The notes under the pieces are model-generated. The model was not told where the DNA came from. It saw nothing but the letters and a program-made list of their open reading frames with translations, and made no database searches. Made by a program: the position numbers and the translations under genes. This document shows, in pieces, positions 26,480 through 41,798 of a stretch of 64,000 nt of DNA (the first letter of the stretch is position 1; every line of letters begins with the position of its first letter). The stretch lies in the NCBI GenBank assembly GCA_903926565.1, contig CAIYJU010000210.1, positions 1 to 64,000 on the forward strand, written 5' to 3'. This DNA is from an uncultured Bacteroidales bacterium. Its GTDB lineage: Bacteria; Bacteroidota; Bacteroidia; Bacteroidales; FEN-979.

Positions 26480-26935
26480 ATGAAAGCAACAAAAGCCGCT
26501 ATTGACTCATTTCTTGCGATCCGCAGGGTCGCAGTTGCAGGAGTTTCAAGGGATCCAAAGAAATTCGGGCATCTGGTTTTCAAGCAGCTGAAGGAGAAGG
26601 GGTTCGAAGTTTACCCGATCAACCCGGAGAGTGATCAGATTGGAGGGGTTCAATGCTTCCACAGTGTGAGTGCATTGCCACTCAACGTACACAGCCTGCT
26701 GATAATAACGCCAAAAAAACAGACAAAAAGCGTGGTGACAGAAGCTGTTGCGAAAGGGATCGACAATATCTGGATCCAGCAGATGTCGGACACCCCCGAA
26801 GCAATTGAACTGGCCATGTCACACCCCATCAACCTGGTCACCGGTGAGTGCATCCTGATGCACCTTGACCCGGTAACCGGCATTCACAAATTTCATCGCA
26901 CGGTTAAAAAGCTTTTCGGGCTCTATCCCCGATGA
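26480..26935 (+). CDS. CoA-binding (Rossmann) domain protein, YccU type
   Basis: 151 residues, one CoA_binding domain. N-terminal RRVAVAGVSRDPKKFGHLVF (about 14-33) is the nucleotide-binding loop, followed by GFEVYPINPESDQIGGVQCF and a C-terminal GIDNIWIQQMSD...NLVTGECILMHLDPVTG. These small proteins bind CoA or acyl-CoA and lack the catalytic domains of succinyl-CoA synthetase. Their role is not settled. No signal peptide, so cytoplasmic. It precedes tRNA-Val and has no operon partner. Confidence 0.9.
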   Translation: MKATKAAIDSFLAIRRVAVAGVSRDPKKFGHLVFKQLKEKGFEVYPINPESDQIGGVQCFHSVSALPLNVHSLLIITPKKQTKSVVTEAVAKGIDNIWIQQMSDTPEAIELAMSHPINLVTGECILMHLDPVTGIHKFHRTVKKLFGLYPR

Positions 26936-27004
26936 AACTTTGCGCTGATTCACATTTATTTGAGCCGAAATTTAAAACAAATCAAAGAATCCTTGCCTGG
27001 ACGC

Positions 27005-27034
27005 TTGGATGTATAAAAAAAGTTATTACATTTG
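27005..27034 (+). promoter_or_regulatory. promoter of tRNA-Val
   Basis: TACATTTG at 27027-27034 matches TAnnTTTG, and TTG at 27005-27007 lies at the -33 position with 19 bp between. The tRNA begins 14 bp downstream of the -7 element. Confidence 0.6.
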
Positions 27035-27047
27035 CACCCTCAATTGA

Positions 27048-27122
27048 GGGAGCATAGCTCAGCCGGTTCAGAGCATCTGCCTTACAAGCAGAGGGTCACA
27101 GGTTCGAATCCTGTTGCTCCCA
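27048..27122 (+). tRNA. tRNA-Val (anticodon TAC)
   Basis: 75 nt. Acceptor GGGAGCA pairs with TGCTCCC. The D arm is GCTC...GAGC, and the anticodon stem TCTGC/GCAGA holds loop CTTACAA (anticodon TAC, valine). The T arm is ACAGG-TTCGAAT-CCTGT, and the discriminator base is A. CCA is not encoded. An intrinsic terminator follows immediately. It marks the left edge of the accessory region. Confidence 0.97.
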
Positions 27123-27127
27123 CAGGT

Positions 27128-27163
27128 AAAAAAAGGTTTCAGAAATTCTGAAACCTTTTTTTT
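27128..27163 (+). terminator. intrinsic terminator of tRNA-Val
   Basis: GGTTTCAG (27135-27142) pairs with CTGAAACC (27148-27155) around loop AAATT. The stem is flanked by an A-run and followed by eight T (27156-27163). The A-run makes it potentially bidirectional. Confidence 0.9.
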
Positions 27164-27297
27164 GCCTATCCTATCCAGGCACTCATTTTCTACTGTGCCA
27201 TATCAGCTATCTATATCACACGATTTTTCCATGACTAACTTTTCGCACCCCTTTTGAGAAAATTATTGTACAAAGTCGCATTGATTCAAAAACCTTG

Positions 27298-27332
27298 TAT
27301 ATTTGCAATTCGCGATTCGCGTATCGCGAATT
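27298..27332 (+). promoter_or_regulatory. -7 element plus 26-bp palindromic operator of the toxin-antitoxin pair
   Basis: TATATTTG (27298-27305) is a -7 element. Directly over the expected start site lies a perfect palindrome: AATTCGCGAT (27307-27316), spacer TCGCGT, ATCGCGAATT (27323-27332). CGCG occurs three times in it. The placement suggests an autoregulatory repressor site; the first gene downstream has a helix-turn-helix-like N-terminus. Confidence 0.6.
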
Positions 27333-27344
27333 AAATACAACCTG

Positions 27345-27857
27345 ATGAAAAAGCACAATGGGATGAGACCCCAGGATGTGGTCATTCTACTGAAAATAGC
27401 CACTCTAAAGGATAAAGTGTGGAATGGAAAAAACCTTTACACTACATTGTTTATCAGCCCTTCAGAGGTTAGTGAATCCCTCAATCGTTCTATGATTGCA
27501 GGATTGCTTGATGCTGGCAAACGAAAACTTATGAGGCAGGCATTCCTTGAATTTCTGGAACATGGTCTTAAATATGTTTATCCGCAACAACCCGGAGCGC
27601 TTGTCAGAGGGATGCCAACAGCCCATTCAGCACCACCATTAAATAAAATTATTCAAAGCCAGGAGTTCTACGTATGGCCTGATCCGCTGGGAGAACAGCG
27701 GGGACAGGCTATTGAACCTCTTCATCCCGGGGTGGTGGAAGCAGCCAGACTGGATGCTGAATTATATGAACTATTATCATTGATTGATGCCCTGAGGATC
27801 GGAAGATCAAGAGAACAGGCAATCGCAATCCAGGAGTTATCAAATCGAATCGGTTAA
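27345..27857 (+). CDS. putative antitoxin/HTH partner of an AbiEii-type nucleotidyltransferase
   Basis: 170 residues from the ATG at 27345. An upstream in-frame start at 27303 would lie inside the promoter and operator. The N-terminus (GMRPQDVVILLKIATL, about 6-21, then LYTTLFISPSEVSESLNRSMIAGLLD, about 33-58) reads as a winged helix-turn-helix. The rest has the family segments YPQQPGALVRGMPTAHSAPP and FYVWPDPLGEQRGQAIEPLHPG. From memory of the family, such proteins precede nucleotidyltransferases of the AbiEii/type IV toxin group. The next gene, four bases away, is such a protein but deleted. This gene itself is intact, so it may persist as a free repressor or solitary antitoxin. Confidence 0.7.
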   Translation: MKKHNGMRPQDVVILLKIATLKDKVWNGKNLYTTLFISPSEVSESLNRSMIAGLLDAGKRKLMRQAFLEFLEHGLKYVYPQQPGALVRGMPTAHSAPPLNKIIQSQEFYVWPDPLGEQRGQAIEPLHPGVVEAARLDAELYELLSLIDALRIGRSREQAIAIQELSNRIG

Positions 27858-27861
27858 TACT

Positions 27862-28288
27862 ATGGACAGAAAAATTGATATAGAAAGCATCATCGAAGTA
27901 GCTGCTGCCCTTGGCGAACTCATGGTTCAAGGAAGGGTTTGAGCATATAGAGATAGTCACGCTGAAAAAAACTACTGCGATCCGAATATTGCCTGTCGCA
28001 TATTTTCTCTCCACTAAGTTTGAGGCATTCCACAGCAGGGGAAAGGATCCACGAACCAGTCATGATCTTGAAGACATCATATTTGTAATGGATAACCGGC
28101 TCAATATGGTAGAAGAAATTCTTACTTCACCTCAGCATGTTTTGCACCATCTCCAATTCGAATTCACAAAATTGTTAAGTCCGACAATGGAAGAAGCCGT
28201 TTATGGTCACATGAATCCATTGTCAAGGAAAGACAGGTTTCCGCTGCTAATGAACAAGTTACATGAAGTTATAAATCCTAAAAGATAG
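27862..28288 (+). pseudogene. AbiEii-like nucleotidyltransferase with deleted catalytic core
   Basis: The ATG at 27862 starts MDRKIDIESIIEVAAALGEL, the usual N-terminus of this family, which then hits a TGA at about 27940. A second frame, open from about 27911 to 28288, carries the family C-terminal half: NSWFKEGFEH, ILPVAYFLSTKFEAFHSRGK and DPRTSHDLEDIIFVMDNR. The part normally between them, holding the GG and DxD metal-binding nucleotidyltransferase motifs, is missing. The deletion, apparently around 27911-27925 and, from typical family length, about 65-90 codons long, also shifts the frame. It cannot be catalytically active. The neighbouring antitoxin-like gene is intact. Confidence 0.75.
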
Positions 28289-28908
28289 TGTTCAAACAGT
28301 AACGGCAAAGCTACTTACAACGACAGGGCTTCCTGCTGGTAGGGCGCTGTAGCTTGGAACTGTCAAGGGCGACCTTCTTTAGGGACTGCCGATTTCAGTG
28401 TATTCAGATTGGAAGTCAACCTGACCAACACCCGTTGACAACGATTAAACTGACCTTGCCCGTGTCGGCTTTCACCTTATTCTGCGACCAGCCATCTATA
28501 TTGAATATGGCTGTGTAGGCCATCACAACAAACAAAACTGCCGCCAATTGGTGCTTTTTCATAATATACCGGTCTTCATTTTTAAAGGACTACATTGCTT
28601 TATGGTGTTCAACAAAATGTTTACCTTTGAAAGTGCGTGTTTCATAAGATACAGGAGGTGATTTAACCGTAATACACTGTGTTTATTTTAACATTCATCG
28701 ACTGATAATTCCAGGAATATTTTAAAACCAATTACCTTACCTGAATCTTCACACAGATTACCCATGTTTCACACATACCTAATCTTAATTTGCCGATCAG
28801 ACGCCCGATATTACAGATTTGCGGTAAATTGATTTATTTGTCATAATTTTTCAACAGGAATAAGCATATTAATCTGAACAACAATAGATACACTCGAGAA
28901 CTCCCCTT
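28289..28908. other. 620-bp decayed intergenic region
   Basis: Apart from a short signal-peptide stub on the minus strand (28416-28562), no frame has coding character. An isolated TACCTTTG at 28622-28629 resembles a -7 element but has no gene behind it. The stretch looks like a graveyard of lost accessory genes. Confidence 0.5.
28416..28562 (-). pseudogene. signal-peptide stub of a lost secreted protein
   Basis: 48 codons from the ATG at 28562: MKKHQLAAVLFVVMAYTAIF, then NIDGWSQNKVKADTGK and a stop at 28416. The N-terminus is a convincing signal peptide with a likely cleavage after GWS, yet almost no mature protein remains, and the downstream frame is full of stops. It is probably the 5' remnant of a secreted protein. 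A genuine 20-residue secreted peptide is possible but less likely. Confidence 0.35.
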
Positions 28909-28950
28909 ATGTTTGATAAAAGAAAAAGGTTATTTAAAAGTCAATCGCAT

Positions 28951-29904
28951 ATGCACAAAAACCGTTTTAAAAAAAACAAACATGCGCATTGCATTGTCCT
29001 TCTGCTCCTGTTAACGACATGTTTTATATCGTCGTGCACCGATCACAAGGCCAATCCCGGTCAAAGAAATTCAACGACCGGAAATTACGATTATAAAAGA
29101 ACAACGCTGTTGCTTAACACCGTTGAGGAGGCTGCTGAAATTTTTCAGAACGAGGGCCTTGAGGCACTGAAAGCATACGAAAAAACTCAGATATCTAATG
29201 GTATCTATTTCTATATCTACAGGAATAGTGATGCATTTTGCATTTACCATGGCGAAGACAGCATAAAAATCAACCGCGTGGTGACAGACCAGACAGACCT
29301 TTTCGGCAAGCCTATTCACAACCTGATATTAGAAGCTTTGTCTGACACCATCAACAACCCCGATGCGTGGGCCCACTTTAACTGGCCGCGCCCTGACAAT
29401 ATTTTTCCTACATGGAAAACAGCCTGTCATCGGAAAGTTGTGTTGAAGGACGGTTCTGATGGTTATATTGGTGCGGGCATGTATGGCTATATTTCTGAAA
29501 AGGAATTCATTAAAATTTCCGTCAAAAAAGCATGCACTTTACTTTCCGTTAAGGGGGATTCCTCTCTTGAATACATACAGGCACCCCAATCGCCTTTTGT
29601 GTTTTTCGATTGTTTTATTTTCATTTATGATTTTAATGGCAACTCAATCATTGACCCGAGTTACAAAAAAGAGTCAAAATCAAACCTGCTGTTATTCAGG
29701 GATGCAACCAACCATTTTCCTTTCAAGGCAATAGCAGAGGAGTTGAAAACGACAGATGAAACATGGAATATACTTCAGTTTACCTCACCAGAGTCAATGA
29801 ATATCAGAAAAAAAGTGATCTATTGCCGTAAAACAAAGCTCAGAAACAAATATGTCATTGTTGGCTCTATGATAGATGCTCCCCAATCTACCTGGTTTAA
29901 ATAG
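28951..29904 (+). CDS. lipoprotein with Cache-like sensor domains
   Basis: 317 residues from the ATG at 28951; an in-frame ATG at 28909 would add 14 residues to an already long basic n-region. The lipobox FISSC places the lipidated Cys at residue 29. The rest resembles a double Cache ligand-binding fold: helix (about 44-70), then strands IYFYIYRNSDAFCIYHG, DLFGKPIHNLILEAL and GSDGYIGAGMYGYI. A second half-domain follows with FFDCFIFIYDFNGNSIIDPS and KYVIVGSMI. Free Cache lipoproteins are thought to bind small ligands in the periplasm. It ends nine bases before an NCS2 nucleobase permease, so the pair may sense and import a purine or pyrimidine. Confidence 0.6.
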   Translation: MHKNRFKKNKHAHCIVLLLLLTTCFISSCTDHKANPGQRNSTTGNYDYKRTTLLLNTVEEAAEIFQNEGLEALKAYEKTQISNGIYFYIYRNSDAFCIYHGEDSIKINRVVTDQTDLFGKPIHNLILEALSDTINNPDAWAHFNWPRPDNIFPTWKTACHRKVVLKDGSDGYIGAGMYGYISEKEFIKISVKKACTLLSVKGDSSLEYIQAPQSPFVFFDCFIFIYDFNGNSIIDPSYKKESKSNLLLFRDATNHFPFKAIAEELKTTDETWNILQFTSPESMNIRKKVIYCRKTKLRNKYVIVGSMIDAPQSTWFK

Positions 29905-29913
29905 TTATTATAT

Positions 29914-31266
29914 ATGGAAAAGAACGAAATACTTTATTCGCAAAATCAGGTGCCTCCTGTTGGAAAACTGATATTTCTTAGTTTACAGCAGGCCGTGCTC
30001 ATACTTACAACCTCCATTTTGCCGGCAATCTTCATTAAAGAAATCAGCGGCGATATCGCTTTAAGCATCTCTTTTGTGAGCGTGACGCTGATCGTGTCGG
30101 GGATTGGTTCTATTTTGCAGGGTTTTAAAATTAAAGGTTTTGGTTCAGGTTATCTCTGTCCAAATGTGTGTGGCCCCTCCTATTTCAGCCTGTCACTCCA
30201 GGCCTTCTGGATGGGGGGATTCCCGCTGATGCGCGGGATGATTATTTTTGCAGGCATTATAGAAATGGCGCTTGCTCCTGTGGTAAAGTACCTGCGTAAT
30301 TTATTTCCTCCCGTGGTGGTTGGAATTGTTGTTGCCAACGTGGGTATCAGTATTATCCCCCTTATTTTTGCGAATTTCTGCGGTTCACCATACTCAAGCG
30401 ATATTATTCTCTGGCAGGATGTAGCCACGGCTATTGTTACTTTACTCCTGATTACTTCTCTGAATATCTGGGGCAAAGGAAATTTCAAATTATTTTGCCT
30501 CCTTATCGGGATATCGATCGGCTGGCTGCTCTATATATTAATTATTCCTTCTGAAAATTTAAACTATGTAAGCCTGCCGGGAATACCTATGTTCGCCATA
30601 CCCAGGATGCCTTTCAATTTTTTCGAGCTCCAGTTTAACTGGAGTCTGATGTTCCCGTTTTTAATCATTTCACTTTGCGGCAGTTTAAAAACTTTCGGCA
30701 ACCTGGCAGCTGCTCAGAAAATAACCACTCCTGAAATAACAGAGATGGACATGAAACCTATAGCCGGAGGCCTTTGGGCTGATGGATTCACAACATCCCT
30801 TTCGGGAGTGCTGGGGGCGATGGCAGTCGACACCTCATCAGGTAATGTCGGGCTGGCCGCAGCAACCAAGGCAGTGAGCCGATGGATAGGAATCGTAGCG
30901 GGCATTATGGTACTTATCGCTGGATTTTTCACAAGGATATCACTGCTTATTTCCATCATTCCACCTCCTGTTGTTGGAGCGGCTCTTACATTTGCCATTG
31001 TTTTTATGGTAATAACCGGATTCCAGGAGATATTCTCAGTGAAACTGGATCAAAAAAAGATAGCCGTTGTGGGATTGTCGATAATCTTTAGTTTGTGCAC
31101 ACAGTTTGTGCCCGAGCTTTTTGCCTATCTGCCCAAATCACTGCAAATTATTTTCAGCAACTCATTAACATCATCCACACTGCTGGCCATCCTTCTGTAT
31201 CAGTTTTTTCATCTGGACAATACGTATGCCCTGATTTCAAAAAAACTAAGACTTTACTTTTCCTGA
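29914..31266 (+). CDS. NCS2 family uracil/xanthine permease
   Basis: 450 residues with about 12-14 membrane segments. Nucleobase/cation symporter-2 proteins import uracil, xanthine, uric acid or related bases with protons or sodium. Visible marks: the first-helix motif region QQAVLILTTSILPAI, GSGYLCPNVCGPSYFSLSLQ (about 77-96, with the conserved substrate-site segment), FPPVVVGIVVANVGISIIP (TM4-5), the FKTFGN-like segment LKTFGNLAAAQK (about 259-270), then DGFTTSLSGVLGAMAVDTSSGNVGLAAATKAVSR (NCS2 signature region). The substrate cannot be told from sequence. It is adjacent to the Cache lipoprotein on the same strand, probably cotranscribed. Confidence 0.88.
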   Translation: MEKNEILYSQNQVPPVGKLIFLSLQQAVLILTTSILPAIFIKEISGDIALSISFVSVTLIVSGIGSILQGFKIKGFGSGYLCPNVCGPSYFSLSLQAFWMGGFPLMRGMIIFAGIIEMALAPVVKYLRNLFPPVVVGIVVANVGISIIPLIFANFCGSPYSSDIILWQDVATAIVTLLLITSLNIWGKGNFKLFCLLIGISIGWLLYILIIPSENLNYVSLPGIPMFAIPRMPFNFFELQFNWSLMFPFLIISLCGSLKTFGNLAAAQKITTPEITEMDMKPIAGGLWADGFTTSLSGVLGAMAVDTSSGNVGLAAATKAVSRWIGIVAGIMVLIAGFFTRISLLISIIPPPVVGAALTFAIVFMVITGFQEIFSVKLDQKKIAVVGLSIIFSLCTQFVPELFAYLPKSLQIIFSNSLTSSTLLAILLYQFFHLDNTYALISKKLRLYFS

Positions 31267-31298
31267 CCTGAAATTCCTCCCTGCGAATTCATCATCTT

Positions 31299-31814
31299 TC
31301 ATGATGAGTGCAAGAATAAACCGGTTGGTTGAGCCGTTCTTGCTAAGATGTTCCAGCTCACATCTCCATGACCCGACCAGCTTTCACTGTTCATTTTTCT
31401 GACAGATTCCAAAACACCCGTATCTGCCGGTCCGTCAAGTTCGGGATAATACCTTACCGCTTCATAGTCCCCGGATTGCCAGTGATAATGTCCATCAGAA
31501 ATAAAAAGTTCGCAATGGAGCTTTCTCAATACATTCAGCAGCCAGATCCCGGATGACTTCCCTCCTCCCCCGCACCCGCCGCCATATCTCACATGAATGA
31601 TGTGGGAAAGCCTTGCCTTCAACGGAATTAATTTCTCTCCGCATAGGGATTCATTGCATGAGAAGGCATAAATCACCGGCATCGTAAATGATCCGATCTT
31701 ATTGGAATCGATCCGGATTTTCAGGAACAGTACCCTCCCAGTGGCAACGCTACCCTCGGGGAAATCAAGGATCCCGGGATGACGGGCAGTACCTATTGGC
31801 GCGAGTTCTTTCAT
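31299..31814 (-). CDS. orphan protein, probably 5'-truncated
   Basis: 171 residues from the only ATG (31814), with no recognised family. The reading frame is open upstream to a stop at 32079-32081, adding about 88 codons that look protein-like (SDIFLYSDYFPWKHSTFLD, PIIWDDLRTLVSLES) but contain no ATG, GTG or TTG. This suggests that the gene lost its 5' end or is frameshifted. The annotated part is globular, with five or so Cys (FSCNESLCGEK, GGGCGGGGKSSG). The gene converges on the NCS2 permease. Function unknown. Confidence 0.4.
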   Translation of the reverse strand: MKELAPIGTARHPGILDFPEGSVATGRVLFLKIRIDSNKIGSFTMPVIYAFSCNESLCGEKLIPLKARLSHIIHVRYGGGCGGGGKSSGIWLLNVLRKLHCELFISDGHYHWQSGDYEAVRYYPELDGPADTGVLESVRKMNSESWSGHGDVSWNILARTAQPTGLFLHSS

Positions 31815-32226
31815 TGATTCCAGGGAAACAAGGGTTCTGAGATCGTCCCATATTATTGGAGTGTCAAGAAAGGTTGAATGTTTCCACGGAAAATAATCGG
31901 AATAGAGGAAAATGTCGGAAGGAGGCGAAGATGCTCTTTTGACTCCGTGTTGTAAATGGACATCAGGGAGTGGAAAATTACCATACCCCTCGATAACATA
32001 AAGCAGATAACTTTGAAGTCGGCCATTCCGGCCTTCGGGGATTGTGAGAACCTGGGGGATTATCGTTTCACGATAGATTTAGCCGGTGGCCACCGGATGG
32101 TCATTACAGGTGAATTTAAATCGCAAATACCTGATTATTGGTATTATGAGCACAAGGTTTCGGTTTAAACCCGGTTCTGCCTGTTGTTGGACTCGTCCTC
32201 CTCTTCCTTTGCTTCAGGTATTTATA

Positions 32227-32282
32227 TTTACTCATCATATTGAGTAAATTATCTCAATACATTGAGTAAATTATTATATTTG
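32227..32282 (+). promoter_or_regulatory. repeat operator and -7 element before the DUF4143 ATPase
   Basis: TTTACTCA (32227-32234) and TGAGTAAA (32241-32248) form an inverted repeat with a 6-bp spacer. CTCAAT-AC-ATTGAG (32253-32266) is a second palindrome. A 14-bp direct repeat ATTGAGTAAATTAT occurs at 32239-32252 and 32261-32274, 22 bp apart (two helical turns). The -7 element TATATTTG (32275-32282) follows at once. The sites overlap the core promoter and so most likely repress. Confidence 0.6.
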
Positions 32283-32295
32283 CAAAAACATCATC

Positions 32296-33477
32296 ATGTT
32301 TCAGCGCCCATATTATACGAAAATCCAGAAAAGGCTTCAATTGAAACGTAAGTTCATCCAGGTTCTGATGGGTCCCCGCCAGGTTGGAAAAACGACGATT
32401 GTCAGGCAGTTACTGGAAAAATATTCGTTTCCCTGGCATTATGCATCTGCGGATGAAGCAACTCAACCTCTCTGGTTACAACAGCAATGGGAGACAATCC
32501 GGCTGAAGGCACGGTCGGCAGAATCGTCAGAAGCATTGCTGGTGATCGATGAGATACAGAAAATTCCTGATTGGAGCAACCAGGTTAAAATCCATTGGGA
32601 CAAAGACAGCTTTGATCATATTCCGATAAAACTTATCCTGCTCGGCTCATCACAACTCATGCTGCAAAAGGGATTAAGTGAATCGCTGGCCGGGCGTTTT
32701 GAAGTGATTTATATTCCCCACTGGTCATTCAATGAGATGCATGATGCCTTTGGTTTTACAGCAGATGATTTTATCTGGTTCGGAGGATATCCGGGCCCGG
32801 CCGACCTGATCACCGACGAAAGCCGCTGGAAGGAGTACATCCGTCATTCGTTAATTGAAACAACGCTGATGCGGGATATATTGTTAATGGTGAGAATTGA
32901 CAAACCTGTGTTACTTCGCAACCTTTTCGACCTGGCCTGTGCCTGGTCGGGACAGATCCTGTCGTACAACAAAATCCTCGGACAATTGAAGGATGCCGGG
33001 AATACAACTACATTGGCCCATTACCTGAAGCTTCTTAAAGGTGCCGGCATGATCAGGGGATTGGAGAAATATTCTCCTTCAACCATCCGTCAGCGTGCCT
33101 CCAGTCCAAAATTCCAGGTATTCAATATGGCACTGATGTCGGCATTGAGTACAATGAAACATCAGGAACTATCCGGTCAACCGGAAATATATGGCAGATG
33201 GGTTGAATCGGCCATAGGAACTCACCTGCTCAACCAATCCATTACAGAAAACATAAACCTTTACTACTGGAGGGAGGGCAACCACGAAGTGGACTTCGTT
33301 TTGCAAAAGGGTGATAAAACGATTGGCATAGAAGTGAAAAGCGGACGCAATAAACAATCCACGGGCATTCCTGCCTTTGACCAGCATTTCAATCCTGCGA
33401 AAATCCTGCTTGTCGGCAGGGAAGGGATCCCGGTTGAAGAATTTCTGGCTACACCAATTTCCAACTTATTCGGTTAA
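32296..33477 (+). CDS. AAA+ ATPase with DUF4143 domain
   Basis: 393 residues. N-terminal AAA_14 domain with Walker A MGPRQVGKTTI (about 25-35) and Walker B LLVIDEIQKI (about 83-92), then sensor LILLGSSQLML. The C-terminal DUF4143 half ends in a restriction-nuclease-like segment, EVDFVLQKGDKTIGIEVKSG (about 334-353), with the Asp...Glu-x-Lys arrangement typical of PD-(D/E)xK folds. These proteins are widespread and patchily distributed in bacteria and archaea. Their role is unknown, and toxin-antitoxin-like or mobile-element associations have been suggested. It stands alone behind a complex repeat operator. Confidence 0.82.
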   Translation: MFQRPYYTKIQKRLQLKRKFIQVLMGPRQVGKTTIVRQLLEKYSFPWHYASADEATQPLWLQQQWETIRLKARSAESSEALLVIDEIQKIPDWSNQVKIHWDKDSFDHIPIKLILLGSSQLMLQKGLSESLAGRFEVIYIPHWSFNEMHDAFGFTADDFIWFGGYPGPADLITDESRWKEYIRHSLIETTLMRDILLMVRIDKPVLLRNLFDLACAWSGQILSYNKILGQLKDAGNTTTLAHYLKLLKGAGMIRGLEKYSPSTIRQRASSPKFQVFNMALMSALSTMKHQELSGQPEIYGRWVESAIGTHLLNQSITENINLYYWREGNHEVDFVLQKGDKTIGIEVKSGRNKQSTGIPAFDQHFNPAKILLVGREGIPVEEFLATPISNLFG

Positions 33478-33579
33478 TTCAACTGAATATTCCCGGTAAT
33501 TCAAAGAAGTGGTTCTCAGGAAACGAAAATAATTTCCTGGCATGATTATACCACGTCATAGTTTGGCGTAGTCCGGGAT

Positions 33580-33587
33580 TATTTTTG
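33580..33587 (+). promoter_or_regulatory. -7 element of the 120-residue orphan gene
   Basis: TATTTTTG matches TAnnTTTG, ending 18 bp before the ATG at 33606. This supports that start over an upstream TTG at 33585, which lies inside the element. Confidence 0.45.
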
Positions 33588-33605
33588 CCGGACAACATCA
33601 ACGAC

Positions 33606-33968
33606 ATGAGCCCGATTGACCTTTTGCTGGAAGAATTAAATGAATTATTCAGAAAAGTTGATTCCTTTTTCGATGAAGCCTTTGTCAAAACCAGGACCAG
33701 GCAAATCTACACTAGCGATGGCACAGTCAAACTTAAGTCAGTTCACAGACTGGAGATCGCAAACAGAACCGTTACGATTCATACAAAGGAATCATCAAAA
33801 ATCGCCTGCACCAAAAAGCCGGAAAACGGAACCCCGGCCCCATTCTCTGTTTTCGGACTGAACAGTATCGTGCCGGGTCACGAAAAATCGCTGGTCAGGA
33901 TCATGGAGGAGAATTCAAACCAGAATAACATTCTGAAAACACAGGTAAACAGGCCTGTTGGGGAATAA
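33606..33968 (+). CDS. small cytoplasmic orphan protein
   Basis: 120 residues from the ATG at 33606; an upstream TTG at 33585 would lie within the promoter. No signal peptide or membrane segment. The N-terminus is an amphipathic helix (PIDLLLEELNELFRKVDSFFDEAF, two stretches), then a basic beta-rich middle (QIYTSDGTVKLKSVHRLEI, NRTVTIHTKESS) and a polar C-terminus. I do not recognise it. The promoter match and frame length make it probably real. Confidence 0.5.
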   Translation: MSPIDLLLEELNELFRKVDSFFDEAFVKTRTRQIYTSDGTVKLKSVHRLEIANRTVTIHTKESSKIACTKKPENGTPAPFSVFGLNSIVPGHEKSLVRIMEENSNQNNILKTQVNRPVGE

Positions 33969-34481
33969 GAGATAAGTTGACAGAATATTCTTTTTACGAT
34001 AATTTGCTTGCTGTGGAATGAAAGCATACCGTTGTTTCCCATTTGGACAATCATTATGCTGACCTTCCTGGTATGGGTCTGCATCAGCAGCAAAAAGGAT
34101 TAACCCGCCTATTCAGGTATTGTCAGAGCCACAGCCGGGATCAGGGAGGTTATTCGAATTAAATAAATGCCGGATGTTGTAATATTCGGCTATAACATTA
34201 GCCTATTATATTGACTTATTTACAATGGTTAATTCCTCACACTAAAACTATTAATAAAAATATTTTTCTGGCGTTTTGTCGAAATTAAATATTTTATTTG
34301 TATATTCGTTTCACAATACATATACATGTCACATAAGGGTCTGGTTGATCATTGTATGTTGGTTACAACTTGCCTGTATCTTCACCATTGACCTATTTCC
34401 GTACCTGATCATGGACCTGATATACTTGAAATGGGGCCGCCGAAAACCAGCAAGAGTAGGCTCAATCTAAATACGTTCATT
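33969..34481. other. 513-bp A/T-rich spacer before the three-gene cassette
   Basis: Strongly A/T-rich. The open frames here, for example a plus frame from 34276, lack coding character. Promoter elements for the cassette must lie in its 3' half, but no clean TAnnTTTG was found there. No repeats, tRNA or integrase site seen. Confidence 0.45.
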
Positions 34482-35282
34482 ATGAGTAGTGTCGCAAATC
34501 TTTATGCCAATGAAATAAAGAAGCAATTTAAAGTCCTTTACGCAAATTGGGAACCGGGTGGGCCAGTAAGTCTGGGGGACTATGGAATTATGGCAGGAAA
34601 TATCTTTATTCCCAAAGGGAATCTTACAAATGATTTTGACGAATTTAAAGGAGGTGTTATCGAAATCACACAAGACCCCCAGAAGGATCATAAAGAATTC
34701 ACCTCTGAAGGAGGTGTGGATATCAACCTTGTTGCAAAAGGGTCGGGCACCATACAAGGAGTTTCAGCCAAAGCAGCATTAGAGATAACATTCTCACATA
34801 AAGATGCAATATTTTTTAATGCTGCAGGATGCAGTACAACGCGAATTTCAAATAAAACGGAAATTGGCACTTTATTGAAGAAAATAATGAAAGATGGCAG
34901 ATGGTCAAAAGAATATTGTGTCGTGACAGACTTAGTTTCTTCTGGGCAAACTATCATCGCCATTTCTGCAGGCAACAATGCTGGAATATCATTCGGAGCA
35001 GAAAGTCCAGGCATCGAAAACATCAATTTGGCAGATGCCACCGTGAAATTAAGCTTAACCACACAGAGAAGTATAGGATATAAAATTGAAGCTCTTGAAG
35101 GCCTGACCCTTTTACTTGGATTATGCAAATTGAAAAATCCATTTATCTGGTGGGGTGGAGGATTTAATCCCCGGACACTAAGAATGACAACTTCCATGAT
35201 TGATAAAATCGAAGATGCTCCGGGAATAGTTACGGAGCAAAGCCCGGATGAGCTTATTTTTGGTCAACTGGGTAAAGAATAA
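34482..35282 (+). CDS. possible gasdermin-like pore-forming protein
   Basis: 266 residues from the ATG at 34482; an upstream ATG at 34431 adds an unlikely 17-residue leader. No signal peptide, cytoplasmic. Not identified by a known motif, but the layout resembles the gasdermin pore-forming domain. A short N-terminal helix (NLYANEIKKQFK) is followed by early strands (VSLGDYGIMAGNIFIP) and a Gly/Ser-rich segment (VDINLVAKGSGTIQG, about 77-91). Next comes a helix after a long strand pair, then YCVVTDLVSSGQTIIAIS (about 145-162), close to the metazoan YVVTEVVETVQEV pattern, and KLSLTTQRSIGYKIEAL (about 189-205), like the VTIPKG...LAFRVRQL end of that domain. A tail of about 55 residues follows, a possible inhibitory peptide. 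First gene of a cassette with a protease. Function is inference. Confidence 0.45.
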   Translation: MSSVANLYANEIKKQFKVLYANWEPGGPVSLGDYGIMAGNIFIPKGNLTNDFDEFKGGVIEITQDPQKDHKEFTSEGGVDINLVAKGSGTIQGVSAKAALEITFSHKDAIFFNAAGCSTTRISNKTEIGTLLKKIMKDGRWSKEYCVVTDLVSSGQTIIAISAGNNAGISFGAESPGIENINLADATVKLSLTTQRSIGYKIEALEGLTLLLGLCKLKNPFIWWGGGFNPRTLRMTTSMIDKIEDAPGIVTEQSPDELIFGQLGKE

Positions 35283-35321
35283 GGATTTTAAACATAACAA
35301 TTTTGAAAACACCCTATTCCT

Positions 35322-37334
35322 ATGATTCAGAAGGCTCCACCATTCAGAAAATTAAGAGGGTACGCATTCGATCCGTCCCTTTCGCAAAAGATTGATACTG
35401 CATTCATCAATTTACTGACTTACAAGATTCCCTGGGAAGAAAATCTAAAAGAAGGCCCAATTGGTGAATATGTTGAAGTCATCGATTATGATCCGACGAC
35501 ACAGACCTGGTATATTCCAGTTGACCTGAATAACAACTACATTCTGGCCCAGGATGGTCTCTTCCCGAGTGAAAGCAATCCACAATATCATCAGCAAATG
35601 TGCTATGCTGTTGCTATGACGACCATAATGAACTTCGAAAAAGCGCTGGGCAGACCAATAATGTGGAGCCCGCATCAAATTTTCCAAAATAAAAATAATC
35701 AGACCTCCAGTGACCCTGAGTATGTTAAAACATTGAGGATTTATCCGCATGCCATTCGCGATGCGAATGCTTTTTATAGTCCTCAGAAAAAGGCACTTCT
35801 GTTTGGCTATTTTTCAACAAAATCAAACAATACAAACGATCTCCTTCCAAATGCCCTGGTATTTACCTGTTTAAGCCATGACATCATTGCACATGAAACC
35901 ACACATGCAATTCTCGACGGCATACACAGTAAATATTCGGAAGATACAAATCCTGATGTCCTGGCATTCCATGAAGCAATCGCTGACATTGTAGCACTTT
36001 TCCAGCACTTTACTTTTCCTGAAGTACTTACCCATCAGATTGCAAAGACCAGAGGTGACCTTTCCACACAAAACTTATTAGGAGAACTGGCGCAACAATT
36101 TGGTTCAGCAGTTGGCAATTATGGTGCCCTTCGCGATGCTATCGGAGTAACTGACAAGGACACGAAGATATGGCATGCCAAGGTGCCAAATGGACTTGAA
36201 TATCAAAATGAAAAAGAACCCCATAATCGGGGTGCTATTTTAGTATCAGCGGTATTTGATACGTTTTTGACCATTTACAGAAACAGGACAGCCGATTTGC
36301 TTCGGATTGCAACCGGAGGCTCCGGCATTCTGCCAGAAGGATATTTGCATCCTGATCTTGTAAACCGCCTGGCAAAAGAAGCATCAAAATCAGCACAACA
36401 TGTTTTAAATATGTGCATCCGGGCACTGGATTATTGTCCCCCTGTCGACATTACCTTTGGTGATTATCTCAGGGGGATTATTACTGCAGACATAGACCTC
36501 GAAGAAGAAGACAGTTGTGAATACCGCTTAGCATTCATTGATTCGTTTCGGAAAAGAGGTATATATCCGGAGGGGATAAAAAGTCTTTCTGAAGATAGCT
36601 TAAAGTATTCCGCGCCCGTTGCTCAAAATATTGGGTCATCTGTATCCGTTCTCTCGGATTTTTTAAGAAAATTCAGCAATGAGATGGCCTTCACTTTCGA
36701 TCGGAAAATAATATTTGATATCACCAAGAAATATATAAAAGGAGATATTCAAGGAAATAACGAAAACGACTTTTTCGCTCTGCATAGCAGAATTGCCGGG
36801 AAATTCAGCACAAGAGAATTTGAGAAACTAACCGGATTGGTTTTCTCCGAGACATATAAAGAATTCGGTGTAAATCCCTCACCCTCATATGGCACAGCAT
36901 TTCCTTCATTCTATATCCGCTCATTAAAACTGGCTTCCCGCGTTGGACCAAAAGGCAATAAAACCAATCAAATCATTATTACCCTGTCTCAGAATGCTCA
37001 CTTTGTTGTGGTTAAAGAAGATTCTGGTAAAGTTCATTTTCAACCCAGGGGTTCATCATTAAATGAGGAACCGGAAAATCATCCATTAACCCTGATGGGA
37101 GGAGTTACGTTAATCTTTGACCTGGACAAAATGTCTCTGAAATATTGCATTAGCAAACCAATCCTTGACCAGGACAGCCTACCGGCTGGCATGAAAATAA
37201 ACGAGAAAAGGATATTGGCACTCTACAATTATCTGACAGGTTATAAAGCAAATTCAAGTGCATTTGCAGCGTATTTTGTTCCTGAACAAGGGACCACGTT
37301 ACTTGAACCATTTTCAATGTTACATAGACTATAA
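35322..37334 (+). CDS. cytoplasmic gluzincin metallopeptidase (HETTH)
   Basis: 670 residues. The zinc-binding HExxH motif is HETTH (191-195) in SHDIIAHETTHAILDGIHSK, and FHEAIADIVALFQHF (217-231) supplies the third ligand, Glu218, with the following Asp. Glu after HExxH by about 23 residues is the gluzincin (thermolysin/M4-like) arrangement. There is no signal peptide or propeptide of secreted M4 enzymes, so it acts inside the cell. About 450 residues beyond the catalytic domain are unassigned and may hold a sensor or substrate-binding region. It starts 39 nt after the putative pore former and precedes the MBL gene. It is a plausible activator of the former by cleavage, but that is inference. 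Confidence 0.7.
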   Translation: MIQKAPPFRKLRGYAFDPSLSQKIDTAFINLLTYKIPWEENLKEGPIGEYVEVIDYDPTTQTWYIPVDLNNNYILAQDGLFPSESNPQYHQQMCYAVAMTTIMNFEKALGRPIMWSPHQIFQNKNNQTSSDPEYVKTLRIYPHAIRDANAFYSPQKKALLFGYFSTKSNNTNDLLPNALVFTCLSHDIIAHETTHAILDGIHSKYSEDTNPDVLAFHEAIADIVALFQHFTFPEVLTHQIAKTRGDLSTQNLLGELAQQFGSAVGNYGALRDAIGVTDKDTKIWHAKVPNGLEYQNEKEPHNRGAILVSAVFDTFLTIYRNRTADLLRIATGGSGILPEGYLHPDLVNRLAKEASKSAQHVLNMCIRALDYCPPVDITFGDYLRGIITADIDLEEEDSCEYRLAFIDSFRKRGIYPEGIKSLSEDSLKYSAPVAQNIGSSVSVLSDFLRKFSNEMAFTFDRKIIFDITKKYIKGDIQGNNENDFFALHSRIAGKFSTREFEKLTGLVFSETYKEFGVNPSPSYGTAFPSFYIRSLKLASRVGPKGNKTNQIIITLSQNAHFVVVKEDSGKVHFQPRGSSLNEEPENHPLTLMGGVTLIFDLDKMSLKYCISKPILDQDSLPAGMKINEKRILALYNYLTGYKANSSAFAAYFVPEQGTTLLEPFSMLHRL

Positions 37335-37365
37335 TATAATTTGAAATTTAAAAAAACCTGATCCT

Positions 37366-38823
37366 ATGGCAGATCCAAATTCCCCGAAGATTGTTGTCAG
37401 AATGTACAAGACCGGCACCGGTGATTTTTTCCTTTTAAGGATAGATAAAATGGATGGAAAAAAGTTTAATATCTTACTGGATTGCGGCAGTTATAAATTT
37501 GACAAGACCCGTTTGGATGAAATTATTGATGACATGCATGCACTTACTGATGGCATCATTGATTTGTTGATTGTTACCCATGAACATGAAGATCACATAA
37601 GTGGTTTTGAAACTGCTAAGGATAAATTTTCAAAACTTATTACATTTAAAAACGTTTGGTTTGCCTGGACGGAAGATAAAGATGACCCATTTGCGAATGA
37701 CCTAAGGGAACATCATTCAAAGATTCGTCTGGCAATTTATAATGCATATGAAAAGGTGTCAAAATTGATGGATAATGAAAATTTAAGGACCCTCTACCAG
37801 GGAGAGAGGAACTATGCAGATATTAAGCACCTAAAAGAGACGTTTATCAGCAGCATGGATTGGCTCAACTCACTCAACTATGTTACCCCTCCTGCGCATC
37901 AAATTGCAGGGACAACAATGGTGGATAAATTCAGGTCATGGGGTATTATTAAAGATGATACCGTTGTTGAATTTCGGGAGCCTGGAGAAATCTACAATGG
38001 TTTCAGTGAAATTGAAGGAATCAGGTTTTTAATCCTCGGACCGCCTAAAAATCTTAAGGATCTCTTTGATGAAGGGAAAACTGATGATTATTATAAAAAA
38101 CGGGAGAAACCCAGTGGATTCAATTTTGAGTTCATAGACGCACTTGTAAATGACAAGGAAGGAACTGCCATTTCCTATCCTTTTGAAACGGATTATATTG
38201 TCACGGATTTTCAGAAATACATGGAGAAATATACCAATCAGGAAAAATGGCGGAGTATAGAGAGTGATTGGCTTCTGAATGTAGGAAATCTCGCCATTCG
38301 GCTTGAAAGATGCCTGAATAATACAAGTCTCGCATTTGCTTTGCAATTAAAATCAAACGAACATGTACTGTTATTCACTGGGGATGCCGAATATGGAAAT
38401 TGGAGTAGTTGGTACAACAAACTTTTCTGGGATATTCAAACAAATGGGATTACAAGTCAAAGAGACATTAACTACCTGCTGAAAAATACAGTTTTTTACA
38501 AGGTAGGACATCACTTGTCGCAGAATGGGACTCCAAAAGAAAAAGGAATTGATTTAATGACCAGTCCCGTCTTTGCAGCTATGGTATCACTGGACCTGGA
38601 TATTATCCATCCAAAATGGAGAAACACCATGCCATGCGACTATCTCGGTGCAGCTTTGATTGAAAAAACAAAGGGAAATATTTACTTTTCAGGAGATCAT
38701 AATAAGATTATTAATAACATTCAAACTGCCCGGGTAAATATCTCCCGAAAGAACATTGATCAGATTAACAGCGTATGTAAGCCTTTTTTGGATAAAAATT
38801 TCGTGGAAGTTGAAATTAACTGA
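37366..38823 (+). CDS. MBL-fold metallohydrolase (ComEC/Rec2-type MBL)
   Basis: 485 residues. Metallo-beta-lactamase fold: ILLDCGS (about 36-42), the zinc motif THEHEDH (71-77; HxHxDH), a further metal Asp in LLFTGDAEYGNW (about 337-348) and the C-terminal metal His in YKVGHHLSQNGTP (about 380-392). An insertion of about 200 residues between the first and second halves is long for the family. No membrane segment, so it is not a ComEC protein, although the MBL resembles that branch, which tends to act on nucleic acid or nucleotides. Third gene of the cassette, 31 nt after the peptidase. Function unknown. Confidence 0.72.
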   Translation: MADPNSPKIVVRMYKTGTGDFFLLRIDKMDGKKFNILLDCGSYKFDKTRLDEIIDDMHALTDGIIDLLIVTHEHEDHISGFETAKDKFSKLITFKNVWFAWTEDKDDPFANDLREHHSKIRLAIYNAYEKVSKLMDNENLRTLYQGERNYADIKHLKETFISSMDWLNSLNYVTPPAHQIAGTTMVDKFRSWGIIKDDTVVEFREPGEIYNGFSEIEGIRFLILGPPKNLKDLFDEGKTDDYYKKREKPSGFNFEFIDALVNDKEGTAISYPFETDYIVTDFQKYMEKYTNQEKWRSIESDWLLNVGNLAIRLERCLNNTSLAFALQLKSNEHVLLFTGDAEYGNWSSWYNKLFWDIQTNGITSQRDINYLLKNTVFYKVGHHLSQNGTPKEKGIDLMTSPVFAAMVSLDLDIIHPKWRNTMPCDYLGAALIEKTKGNIYFSGDHNKIINNIQTARVNISRKNIDQINSVCKPFLDKNFVEVEIN

Positions 38824-39322
38824 TTTCTTCAAAACAGGATTCATTTTCATTAATTCACAGGTTTAAGATTCAACGTTACTGCGGATCTCATTTGAGTGTG
38901 TAGAATTCTGTTTTAGCTTTTATCACCAAAATCCCCCAACTTCTCTGCCAGCTTCCTCTTCTCATCAATCTCAAAATCAGCCAGGTAATTTTGGATTGCC
39001 AGAACAGACTTATGTCCCAACGACTCATTGAGATACTCCACACTGGCACCTGTACTAGTGTCTTAGTCCATATGACACTGAAAGATGAGATCAGAGAGGC
39101 CCACAGGAGGGCGCGGCTGCTGTAAGAATAACAGTGAGCAAATCAATCACCTTGTAAACTCCAGGAATGAAAATGGCGGCAAATATTATTCCATCATTGA
39201 TGCATCGTAAAAGATAAAAAATAATTGTGTAACATTTTAGAGTAACAATGGTCCTATTTTTGTTGTGAAAACGGAAATAAACTCTTCCCACTTTCAATAT
39301 TTAATCTTAAAAAACTGATAAA
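38824..39322. other. intergenic region carrying a recombinase remnant
   Basis: Apart from the recombinase C-terminal stump (38913-39050, minus), nothing is coding. AGTGTC at 39057-39062 is inverted against GACACT at 39074-39079, close to the truncation point. A short plus-strand frame after it (MTLKDEIREAHRRARLL, then stop at about 39124) might be another gene fragment. Confidence 0.5.
38913..39050 (-). pseudogene. C-terminal fragment of a tyrosine recombinase/integrase
   Basis: 45 codons ending in TAA at 38913. The translation, from GASVEYLNESLGHKSVLAI to KLGDFGDKS, matches the end of phage-type integrases: LGHKS is the conserved LGH motif, followed by NYLADFE carrying the catalytic-tyrosine region (NYL). 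The upstream catalytic parts are absent, and the sequence before 39050 is unrelated. It is a relic of an integrated mobile element at the right edge of the accessory region. Confidence 0.7.
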
Positions 39323-39838
39323 ATGAAAACAGCTTTCAGGACATTATTTTTATTTGCGGCCATTTCGGCCTTTACGTTTACAGCATGTCAAAAGGGTCCT
39401 GAGGGGCCCCAGGGACCCGCCGGACAAAGTGCACCGGTCTATTATTCCGAATGGTTCTCACCAGCTGCCTGGTCGGGTGGTTCGGGCGAGTGGTTTTTTG
39501 CGGCAAGTGCCCCCGATCTCACAGAGGATATTGTTGAGCGCGGCGTGATACTGGCTTATGTCTGGCTGGCCGGCGATATCTATGGAGCAACGACGGTGCG
39601 CCCCCTGCCGGCTTATGCAGTAGGTGCAAACTGGGACTTTCTGATACACCAGTACGGAAGCATTGAATTCGAAACCGACATGTTTGCACCACCGGTGACC
39701 GCCCATAAATTCCGGTTTATTGCCATCCCGGGCACCATCCCTGCCTTAAAATCAGGATCACCCGGATACAGGAGCAAAGAGGAGCTGAAGAGCATGTCGT
39801 ACAAGGAGGTTTGTAAACTCTACAACATCCCTGAATAG
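39323..39838 (+). CDS. lipoprotein with short collagen-like motif
   Basis: 171 residues. Signal peptide with lipobox FTAC (Cys 22), then a collagen-like GPEGPQGPAG (about 25-34) and a globular domain of about 130 residues (SEWFSPAAWSGG, VLAYVWLAGDIYGATTV, HKFRFIAIPG). The Gly-Pro motif after the lipidated Cys is a recurring feature of Bacteroidetes envelope lipoproteins and probably acts as a spacer. The role is unknown. It stands alone, convergent with the two-component system. Confidence 0.75.
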   Translation: MKTAFRTLFLFAAISAFTFTACQKGPEGPQGPAGQSAPVYYSEWFSPAAWSGGSGEWFFAASAPDLTEDIVERGVILAYVWLAGDIYGATTVRPLPAYAVGANWDFLIHQYGSIEFETDMFAPPVTAHKFRFIAIPGTIPALKSGSPGYRSKEELKSMSYKEVCKLYNIPE

Positions 39839-39847
39839 GGACCTATC

Positions 39848-40543
39848 TCAGGGCACATTAAAAATGAACCCGACCCCAAAAACATTTTCAATGCGTAAAT
39901 CCGGATCTTCCTTCAGGTATTTCCGGATTTTCGTAATGAAAACATCCAGGCTCCTGCCGAAAAAATAATCATTCTCTCCCCAAAGGTCTGTCAGCAGATC
40001 CTCCCGTTTGATGATGTTGTTGCGGTGGGTATATAAATAGCAGAGAATTTCACTCTCCCTTGCTGTGATTCGTTTGGTTTTACCACTTATTGTCAAGGAT
40101 TGATTGTGGTGATCGAATGTAAAATTTCCGAGTGAAATAAATTCAGTTCTGCTGTCGCCTCTGTTTTCCGGGAGCCGGCGAATCACTGCCTTGATTTTCC
40201 AGAGCAGCTCCTCTTCATCAAAGGGTTTTGTGATATAATCATCCGCATCAAGGCCATAACCCTTCAATTTATCCTCCTTCAGTGACTTTGCCGTGATAAA
40301 GATGATTGGCATTTTCCTGTCCTGCAACCTCACCGCTTTTGCCACTGAAAAGCCATCCACTTTCGGCATCATAACATCCAGCAGGCACAGATCAAACCGG
40401 CTGCCCTGAAATGCCTTTAATGCCAGCTCCCCGTCTTTGCAAAGCTTTACCACAAAGCCTTCCGTCTCAAGGTAATCAACCAGGAGGACCCCCAGGTTAA
40501 GGTCATCTTCGGCAAGCAATATTCTGAACACTTCTTCAGACAT
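39848..40543 (-). CDS. OmpR-family response regulator
   Basis: 231 residues. Receiver domain with acidic pocket (LLAEDD, about 9-14), phospho-acceptor Asp56 in LLDVMMPKVDG and conserved Lys in DDYITKPFD (about 102-110). The C-terminal winged helix (about 135-231) has the OmpR/PhoB pattern TARESEILCYLYTHRNNIIKRE...DVFITKIRKYLKEDP. It overlaps the upstream kinase gene by eight bases, so translation is coupled. From memory it resembles RprY of Bacteroides. A pair of 11-bp-spaced direct repeats upstream of the kinase gene may be its own binding site. Confidence 0.92.
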   Translation of the reverse strand: MSEEVFRILLAEDDLNLGVLLVDYLETEGFVVKLCKDGELALKAFQGSRFDLCLLDVMMPKVDGFSVAKAVRLQDRKMPIIFITAKSLKEDKLKGYGLDADDYITKPFDEEELLWKIKAVIRRLPENRGDSRTEFISLGNFTFDHHNQSLTISGKTKRITARESEILCYLYTHRNNIIKREDLLTDLWGENDYFFGRSLDVFITKIRKYLKEDPDLRIENVFGVGFIFNVP

Positions 40544-41798
40544 TGGGAAATTGAATTATGAATGTTGTGCCCTCTCCTTTTTCACTCCGAAGTTCAATTG
40601 TTCCATTATGAAGTTCCACAACCTTTTTGACATAGGTCAGGCCCAGACCGAATCCCTTAACATCATGCACATCACCGGCAGGAACCCTGAAAAATTTATC
40701 AAATACGCTCTTTTGATATTCCTTTGCGATACCAATACCTTTATCGGATAGAGCAACTACAAGTTTTTGCCCGGCATTGGATGTTCGGACGGTTAGTTCA
40801 GGCTTATCGCCGGAGTATTTGATGGCATTGTCGATCAGGTTGCACAATCCATTTACAAGATGCGTCCTGTCTCCAATAATCGCCACGCTTCCGGCTTCCA
40901 GGTTTAACTTCAGGTTCCCTTGCTTATTATCAATCTGCAGGCTCATACACTTCACCGCTTCATTAACAAGTTCATGGAAATTCAGTTCTGTTTTTCGCAA
41001 AGAGATCTCACCCCGTTCAAGGGCCGACATGCTCAACACCTGTTCAACCTGAAGTCTTAATTTCTCATTCTCCTGCAGGATTATTTCCGAGTAATGTTTA
41101 TTTTTCGGATCCTGGTTTACTGCTGAATCCTTTAACAACATCCTGCCGGCCAAAGCAATATTTGTCAGGGGAGTTTTAAATTCATGGGTCATGTTGTTTA
41201 AAAAGCAGGCGGCATGTTCGGCTATTTGTTTCTCCCGCATGAGCAACAGGATGGTTCGCCAGAACATAATAAGAACCACCAGGATCAGGATAACAGAGGT
41301 GATGAACATGGCCCCCATTTCAGCAATAACGTATTGGTTTTTCTCCGGAAATGTGAGTTTCAATTCAACTCCGGTATCGCTATCTTCACCATCCAGAGGT
41401 TTATTATACACATTACCTGCAGTACCACTTTCATTTATTGTCGACAGGTAGCCGGGTTTTACAACCACAAAAGCGTAGTCGATGCGAAAGTTGTACAGCT
41501 TCATGTAATAATTAAACAGCGAATCTATTTTATGTACTTCATTCTTTCCTAATTTCACGACTGGCCCTGCCGTGCGATCCATATCAGCACAGGCTCCGAT
41601 TTTCCGGCAGGTCTCCTTATCAGAACGCAGTGCATCCGTTGTTCGTGACAGTACCATATTGGCTTTTTCATTGAACAGCTCTTCCTTTATTTCTGCTGTC
41701 CGGAAAATCCAGTTCACCTGGATGATCAGCACAATGAGCAATGCGATCGAAGAGATTGCAATAAGGAGATATGTGCGGTTCTTTTTCATTTCAGACAT
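40536..41798 (-). CDS. sensor histidine kinase
   Basis: 420 residues from the ATG at 41798, which has GGAG eight bases upstream; an ATG at 41840 would add 14 residues and lacks a site, and an ATG at 41789 is also possible. Two membrane helices (about 9-28 and 155-178) enclose a periplasmic sensor domain of about 125 residues. The cytoplasmic part has the H box HEFKTPLTNIALAG (about 205-218), N box CNLIDNAIKYS, G1 SDKGIGI and G2 GFGLGLTYV. A normal full kinase. It phosphorylates the regulator encoded directly after it (eight-base overlap). Signal unknown. It resembles RprX of Bacteroides. Confidence 0.93.
   Translation of the reverse strand: MSEMKKNRTYLLIAISSIALLIVLIIQVNWIFRTAEIKEELFNEKANMVLSRTTDALRSDKETCRKIGACADMDRTAGPVVKLGKNEVHKIDSLFNYYMKLYNFRIDYAFVVVKPGYLSTINESGTAGNVYNKPLDGEDSDTGVELKLTFPEKNQYVIAEMGAMFITSVILILVVLIMFWRTILLLMREKQIAEHAACFLNNMTHEFKTPLTNIALAGRMLLKDSAVNQDPKNKHYSEIILQENEKLRLQVEQVLSMSALERGEISLRKTELNFHELVNEAVKCMSLQIDNKQGNLKLNLEAGSVAIIGDRTHLVNGLCNLIDNAIKYSGDKPELTVRTSNAGQKLVVALSDKGIGIAKEYQKSVFDKFFRVPAGDVHDVKGFGLGLTYVKKVVELHNGTIELRSEKGEGTTFIIQFPNV

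Follow-up and report, generated by a model that had tools for sequence, protein, structure and literature searches.

A gluzincin metalloprotease paired with a metallo-β-lactamase-fold enzyme and preceded by a gasdermin-like protein: probably a new make of anti-virus self-destruct system

What does a presumably cytosolic metalloprotease do between the gene of a putative pore former and that of a metallo-β-lactamase (MBL)-fold hydrolase? This question is raised by a three-gene cassette in a stretch of 64,000 nucleotides (nt), positions 1 to 64,000 of contig CAIYJU010000210.1 from an uncultured Bacteroidales bacterium, which we call the window. Gene 1 (P1; 34482..35282; 266 amino acids; sequence PGIVTEQSPDELIFGQLGKE) encodes a gasdermin-like putative pore former, gene 2 (35322..37334; 670 amino acids) a gluzincin, i.e. 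thermolysin-like, metalloprotease, and gene 3 (37366..38823; 485 amino acids) a defence-associated MBL-fold hydrolase similar to LmuA, RTasMBL and Avs1a, which is probably a protease-gated nuclease as judged from its sequence. All three are arranged head to tail on the plus strand with gaps of 39 nt between genes 1 and 2 and 31 nt between genes 2 and 3; open reading frame (ORF) calls confirmed these borders, which had been given in an initial annotation of the locus. We propose that the cassette is a protease-triggered cell-suicide module of the abortive-infection type acting through two arms, one a nuclease and one directed at the membrane, a reading to which we give slightly better than even chances. 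It probably represents a new make of anti-virus self-destruct system.

Genes 2 and 3 belong together as a fixed pair. We assembled 100 loci including the window from matches of the protease on plasmids (tblastn, with relatives in 115 plasmid records) and in genomes, for which an alignment-based scan covered one genome per species and the best 80 of at least 576 related stretches were used; counting was done after removal of the duplicates L001–L008 and of L016 and L029, which are gene 1 loci. When ORF adjacency alone is counted, the MBL gene comes immediately after the protease in 95 of the 100 loci. After overlapping or split ORFs were resolved, the pairing holds in 98/100, that is in all 98 loci with room for it: the distance from the protease to the start of the MBL domain is 65 nt in L099 and 18 nt in L086, where the MBL ORF had been called from a start that is too early, and the MBL starts at 59 nt in L028, where it is divided between two ORFs. 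The other two loci (L052, L071) end with the contig behind the protease. Chance adjacency of the two genes was considered and rejected. Further plasmid loci, mostly more distant, carry the pair in six of eight cases; for the exceptions, L152, which is a distant match (E 9e-17), and L155, whose protease is spread over two ORFs that overlap, no MBL was found in the stretch retrieved. For the 97 loci that entered the tree and the distance calculations, pairwise distances of protease and MBL are correlated with a Mantel r of 0.73, compared with a maximum of 0.14 in 1000 permutations. The protease tree includes Bacteroidota, Pseudomonadota, Acidobacteriota, Planctomycetota, Verrucomicrobiota and Chloroflexota, and places the window in a clade of 12 rows, of which four are patatin loci and seven have no assigned partner. 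The two genes are a conserved unit, and from their residues both enzymes look active.

In the protease, the active-site residues H191, E192, H195, E218 and D222 are invariant in 97/97 pairs, and the zinc ligands and the catalytic glutamate (HExxH plus E) found in Peptidase_M4 are present in every one of them. The HExxH...E...D residues support the assignment of gene 2 to the gluzincins, as initially annotated, and both the HETTH motif and the MBL motifs named at that time are present in the window and conserved among its relatives. The conserved core of the protein comprises residues ~6–430, and the C-terminal region is more variable. Similarity to described peptidases is remote: in the PDB the protease profile matches neutral protease and thermolysin best, in the region of the active site and with E-values of 0.07–0.4, which alone are not significant, and among 20 family members Peptidase_M4 matched weakly in two (best E 0.024) and M36 in two (best E 0.011). 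Single-sequence family searches named no family for the protease, with no curated peptidase family above threshold, and the PADLOC models did not match any of the 20 members at E 0.1. A query with the single protease against genome contigs gave no match and the alignment-based query succeeded; among 100 relatives of the window’s genome the protease was found in the window’s genome only. Compared with the thermolysin-type gluzincins of Peptidase_M4 and M36, gene 2 has the HExxH motif and the downstream E...D spacing in common, whereas it stays below the family thresholds, has no apparent secretion signal, carries an extra C-terminal region and is accompanied by an MBL partner.

Gene 3 shows the same degree of conservation at its metal site, with H72, H74, D76, H77, D340, H382 and H383 invariant in 97/97 pairs. 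In PADLOC it matched LmuA (1.6e-18), RTasMBL (3.9e-11) and Avs1a (1.4e-6), and by its sequence it is thus similar to the MBL enzymes of Lamassu, DRT and Avs1 defence systems, which supports the annotation as MBL and specifies it as the kind used by anti-phage systems. Scores against the NCBIfam models Avs1a and 6A-MBL were far below the cut-offs, and equivalog cut-offs were not reached. Weak profile matches in the PDB include a ComEC chain (E 0.028), which ranked behind many other MBL enzymes. Between the metal motifs the gene 3 family has two segments of low conservation, ~105–200 and ~228–295. As described in PMC12799240, the Hachiman MBL is a pro-nuclease in which two insertions appear to block the active site until a trypsin-like partner cuts them, the AVAST MBL works in the same manner, and in Canu the nuclease is switched on by a complex with a caspase. 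The same paper mentions proteases of “other diverse families” beside such MBL nucleases. Given the two variable segments and the precedent of HamM, Avs1a and CanC, gene 3 may be gated in the same way by the gluzincin.

For gene 1 the relationship to a known family is very distant. The protein consists of a domain of ~225 amino acids, a variable linker and a short C-terminal tail; an alternative upstream start (ATG at 34431) would extend it to 283 amino acids. Its family was gathered from plasmids and genomes, and twelve loci besides the window were read. Relatives were found in 5 other genomes of 395 in a search of the phylum and in 7 other genomes of 395 in a search of the class, with three common to both, and one partial match (L128/L133) came from 299 genomes that belong to the same phylum as G500 (Rhodoferax). 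In ten pair-carrying genomes gene 1 was not found in a search without positive control, viral contigs held no relatives of the gene 1 family or of the bacterial gasdermin model bGSDM, and plasmids held none of bGSDM. A very diverged relative of 306 amino acids (E 1.7e-10) is located within a cluster of unknown genes in L132 (6118–7038, minus strand).

A bacterial gasdermin, 7n50, was the sole match of the gene 1 family profile among 177,635 PDB sequences up to E 10, with an E-value of 0.4 for a profile of eight rows and 0.018 for nine (profiles A3/A4). When 13 family members were scanned with PADLOC, bGSDM was the only family found, in two of them (0.0014 and 0.049), and when genomes were searched with the bGSDM model, one of these two was recovered again (G225, E 0.016). 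Pfam contained nothing relevant for the family. Profile–profile alignment by hhalign with pieces of 7n50 and 7n52 gave probabilities of 49–85% and E-values of 2e-4 to 6e-6, varying with the rows used; the 7n50 piece had been picked by the family’s own PDB match, so that the result favours 7n50. Without the most diverged row the score was 36.2, whereas 200 column shuffles did not exceed 20.2, the reversed alignment reached 17.5, and unrelated profiles reached at most 13.3 and 14.2 in two comparisons. With the bGSDMs of L134 and L135 added, the probability was 17–30% and the score 30.2 versus at most 21.4 in 100 shuffles. We regard homology of the gene 1 family to gasdermins as quite probable.

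In several respects gene 1 resembles a bacterial gasdermin: its length is ~250–270 amino acids, the profile similarity extends over ~140 residues of the solved structures, a short tail follows a variable linker, and protease genes are nearby. It differs from them in lacking an N-terminal cysteine, in scoring far below the family thresholds and in its position beside a metalloprotease and an MBL. Studied bacterial gasdermins have a palmitoylated N-terminal cysteine and a short C-terminal inhibitory peptide, as described in PMC10989679. Among the window, L116 and L130 the tail of gene 1 has identities of 7/19, 8/21 and 9/19 and the linker of 7/26, 6/26 and 9/26. The proteins of L134 (1498–2199, plus strand) and L135 (1522–2223, minus strand), each of 233 amino acids and matching the PADLOC bGSDM model with E ~1e-27 and 2e-25, contain no cysteine at all and therefore cannot be lipidated on cysteine as in the studied proteins.

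The protease beside gene 1 is a gluzincin in the window, and caspase (Peptidase_C14) or CHAT genes are nearby in five of the twelve other family loci. In L120 a Peptidase_C14 gene follows 23 nt downstream, and in L129 a ThsB-like TIR gene and Peptidase_C14 line up with the relative of gene 1 in an operon-like run. This relative stands in a run with SIR2_2-EAD11, nSTAND1 and CHAT genes in L118, is divergent from CHAT and nSTAND1 genes in L119, and in L016 a CHAT gene is found ~2.5 kb away on the opposite strand. In L029 a neighbour appears TIR-like by eye, where a Pfam scan found nothing. The Pfam scans of gene 1 neighbours covered loci other than L116, L130, L131, L132 and L133, and in L117 one gene (weak HEPN).

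The position upstream of the protease is swappable. Pfam tallies were based on 71 upstream and 70 downstream genes, out of 86 on either side. Patatin was by far the commonest family among the nearest upstream genes (22/71; next family 3), and a custom profile placed a patatin directly upstream of the protease in 21 of the 100 loci, in L035 only as a fragment cut by the contig end; six more loci have a patatin elsewhere in the stretch. In four loci a subtilase-type N-terminus is fused to the protease, recognised by Pfam as S8 in L012 and 52–63% identical to it in L014, L024 and L028. An AAA ATPase occupies the slot in two loci, and L154, a locus outside the 100, carries a gene annotated as phospholipase D-like. 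Altogether a recognised third gene is directly upstream or fused in 30/100 loci, counting L038 and L058, which are patatin-like by eye. The commonest recognised occupant is thus a patatin-like phospholipase, and gene 1 fills the slot in the window. Patatin-like phospholipases of the CapV type are effectors in CBASS defence systems; here such a membrane-attacking partner takes, in homologous loci, the slot in which the window has a gasdermin-like protein. Tle1-like (DUF2235) genes were found upstream in 2/71 and downstream in 3/70 cases.

Among the scanned downstream genes Pfam recognised HamA once, JAB three times and Prok-E2 and ThiF twice each. According to their annotations, the plasmid loci L009, L010, L013, L025 and L027 have ThiF, Mov34/JAB and multiubiquitin genes of a ubiquitin-like pathway near the pair. 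An Amidohydro_2-like family of ~600 amino acids directly follows the MBL in 7/70 cases (L021, L036, L064, L070, L073, L074, L092); its members are related to each other by blastp, with 37–69% identity to the L064 protein, and are possibly a further optional component.

Composition, pairing, conservation and slot exchange are observations; trigger, cleavage, nuclease and pore activity and phage protection are what we infer in the following model. The gluzincin would be the switch, becoming active in the cytosol upon a trigger, probably a phage-related cue, for which the variable C-terminal part of the protease itself or a partner from the host may be the sensor. By analogy to HamM, Avs1a and CanC, the protease would then cut the MBL in one or both variable segments and open the nuclease active site. 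By analogy to bacterial gasdermins and to the patatin in the same slot, it may also remove the short C-terminal tail of gene 1, upon which membrane pores could assemble. The initial annotation had the protease activating the pore former; we would rather read the MBL as a further effector, of nuclease type, that the protease opens. More tentatively, and with a smaller degree of belief than in the module as such, we consider that one cytosolic metalloprotease might license both death outputs together, a gated nuclease and a gasdermin-type pore; this would make the cassette a bacterial module of “pyroptosis plus DNA shredding”, with a gasdermin relative under the control of a metalloprotease. The cassette could then, at the same tentative level, be one form of a widespread gluzincin–MBL defence class with interchangeable gasdermin-like proteins, patatins, phospholipase D and subtilases.

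A number of findings weigh against the proposed module. The set of loci leans toward close kin, no sensor was identified, and the nuclease identity of gene 3 is probable and rests on homology. Gene 1 accompanies the pair in the window only (1/100 loci), and ~70/100 loci are without a recognised third gene directly upstream; the co-occurrence expected of the three genes thus stood for genes 2 and 3 and not for a fixed trio. Concerning the gasdermin relationship, hhalign gave 35% against 7n50 alone and 5% against 7n52 alone, L134 and L135 alone do not align with the gene 1 family (probability 0.6%), and with them included the reversed bacterial gasdermin alignment reached 23.2 compared with 30.2 for the true one. 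The bGSDM model finds nothing in the window’s genome, and cysteine is absent from the first 12 residues in all 13 family rows, with the starts of L120 and L133 chosen by hand. Gene 1 of the window as a single sequence matches nothing in family and structure searches; by its family profile, the pore former of the initial annotation is retained as a remote gasdermin relative. The frequency of gene 1 would fit a two-gene system, in which the gluzincin–MBL pair is a complete, Canu-like nuclease–protease defence and gene 1 a neighbour that was acquired independently and serves a purpose of its own; by eye, the nearest protease relatives (L030, L040, L042) show no recognised third gene directly upstream, and relatives of gene 1 at L116, L117, L130 and L131 are without an obvious protease. 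However, the narrow same-strand gap between genes 1 and 2, the frequent patatin in the slot and the recurrence of the gene 1 family with other proteases speak against it, and we consider this alternative unlikely, albeit to be taken seriously.

Gene 1 might instead serve the protease as its regulator, inhibitor or sensor, with gasdermin features that arose by chance or a pore formation that was lost. The similarity being weak and at family level, the negative comparison with two other bacterial gasdermins and the missing N-terminal cysteine agree with this, but the match was the sole one across PDB and PADLOC, is colinear and clearly exceeds the shuffled alignments, patatin replaces gene 1 in homologous loci, and the family lives in caspase, CHAT and STAND neighbourhoods, so that we regard such a role as improbable. 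Housekeeping or secreted proteolysis by a thermolysin-like nutrient protease next to an unrelated metabolic MBL would agree with the fold class of the protease alone. It is difficult to reconcile with the absence, by eye, of a signal-peptide-like N-terminus, with the lack of any curated peptidase family above threshold, with the constant MBL partner of defence kind and with the location of single loci on plasmids or among defence genes (L015 with CBASS genes; L011 with DUF1837 and a helicase), and it is very improbable; a metabolic MBL and a secreted thermolysin were both considered and rejected. Defence genes in the neighbourhoods, which the initial annotation had suggested looking for, were thus seen in single loci of the pair and, for the gene 1 family, as the caspase and CHAT genes described above. 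Offensive or decaying mobile cargo of the toxin-island type, rather than defence, would suit an AT-rich island with a recombinase stump, and patatin and Tle1-like lipases are also found as secreted effectors. Secretion genes were not noticed beside the cassette, though no search was aimed at them, all tested catalytic residues are intact and the protease partner is as in activated self-killing systems; we attach hardly any probability to this explanation.

The described systems closest to the proposed module are HamM with protease-HamA (Hachiman), Avs1a/Avs1b (AVAST), Lamassu and DRT variants and Canu, in which an MBL of the same defence kind stands by an intracellular protease (PMC12799240). 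Gene 3 shares with these MBL pro-nucleases the two variable segments between the metal motifs. In contrast to them, the protease is a gluzincin metalloprotease, neither trypsin-like nor a caspase, no NTPase, helicase or reverse transcriptase fusion was seen in the window MBL, and the upstream position often holds an additional gene, be it a patatin, a gasdermin-like or another one. As described for Canu in PMC12799240, and unlike in the trypsin systems, the MBL lies downstream of the protease. In our searches of the open-licence literature we found no description of a gluzincin–MBL composition; an earlier notice in the supplement of PMC12799240 is possible. If the proposed reading is true, gluzincins would be a third protease class, beside trypsin and caspase, that gates MBL nucleases in bacterial immunity, and the gasdermin family would gain a divergent branch that single-sequence searches miss. 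Membrane-attack effectors would be exchanged in front of one conserved protease–nuclease switch across many phyla. The class is common, with at least 576 related stretches, and its protease is without a match among the PADLOC models.

The cassette has a G+C content of 39.3% compared with 44.8% for the window. The A/T-richness initially annotated was correct, with exact hand counts of 19/60 G+C at 36721–36780 and 34/60 at 16021–16080, and the lowest-GC stretches of 4.4 kb (12 listed, in steps of 200 nt) start at 33201–35401, in and around the cassette. No signal-peptide-like N-termini were apparent by eye in the three proteins, in agreement with the earlier view. The recombinase stump is also present at 38913..39062 on the minus strand: its translation of 49 residues was recognised by eye as a tyrosine-recombinase-like C-terminal end, a relic of mobility. 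A tRNA-Val gene is located at 27048–27123 of the window; none of the attachment repeats listed for it around the island was convincing, including at the cassette end, and an RNA-family scan of 26900–41000 at gathering score found nothing beyond tRNA. Just behind the tRNA-Val gene, two small genes (27303–28288) resemble by eye a two-gene unit of nucleotidyltransferase type, and upstream of the cassette, within the same accessory stretch, an AAA_14/DUF4143 ATPase is encoded at 32296–33477.

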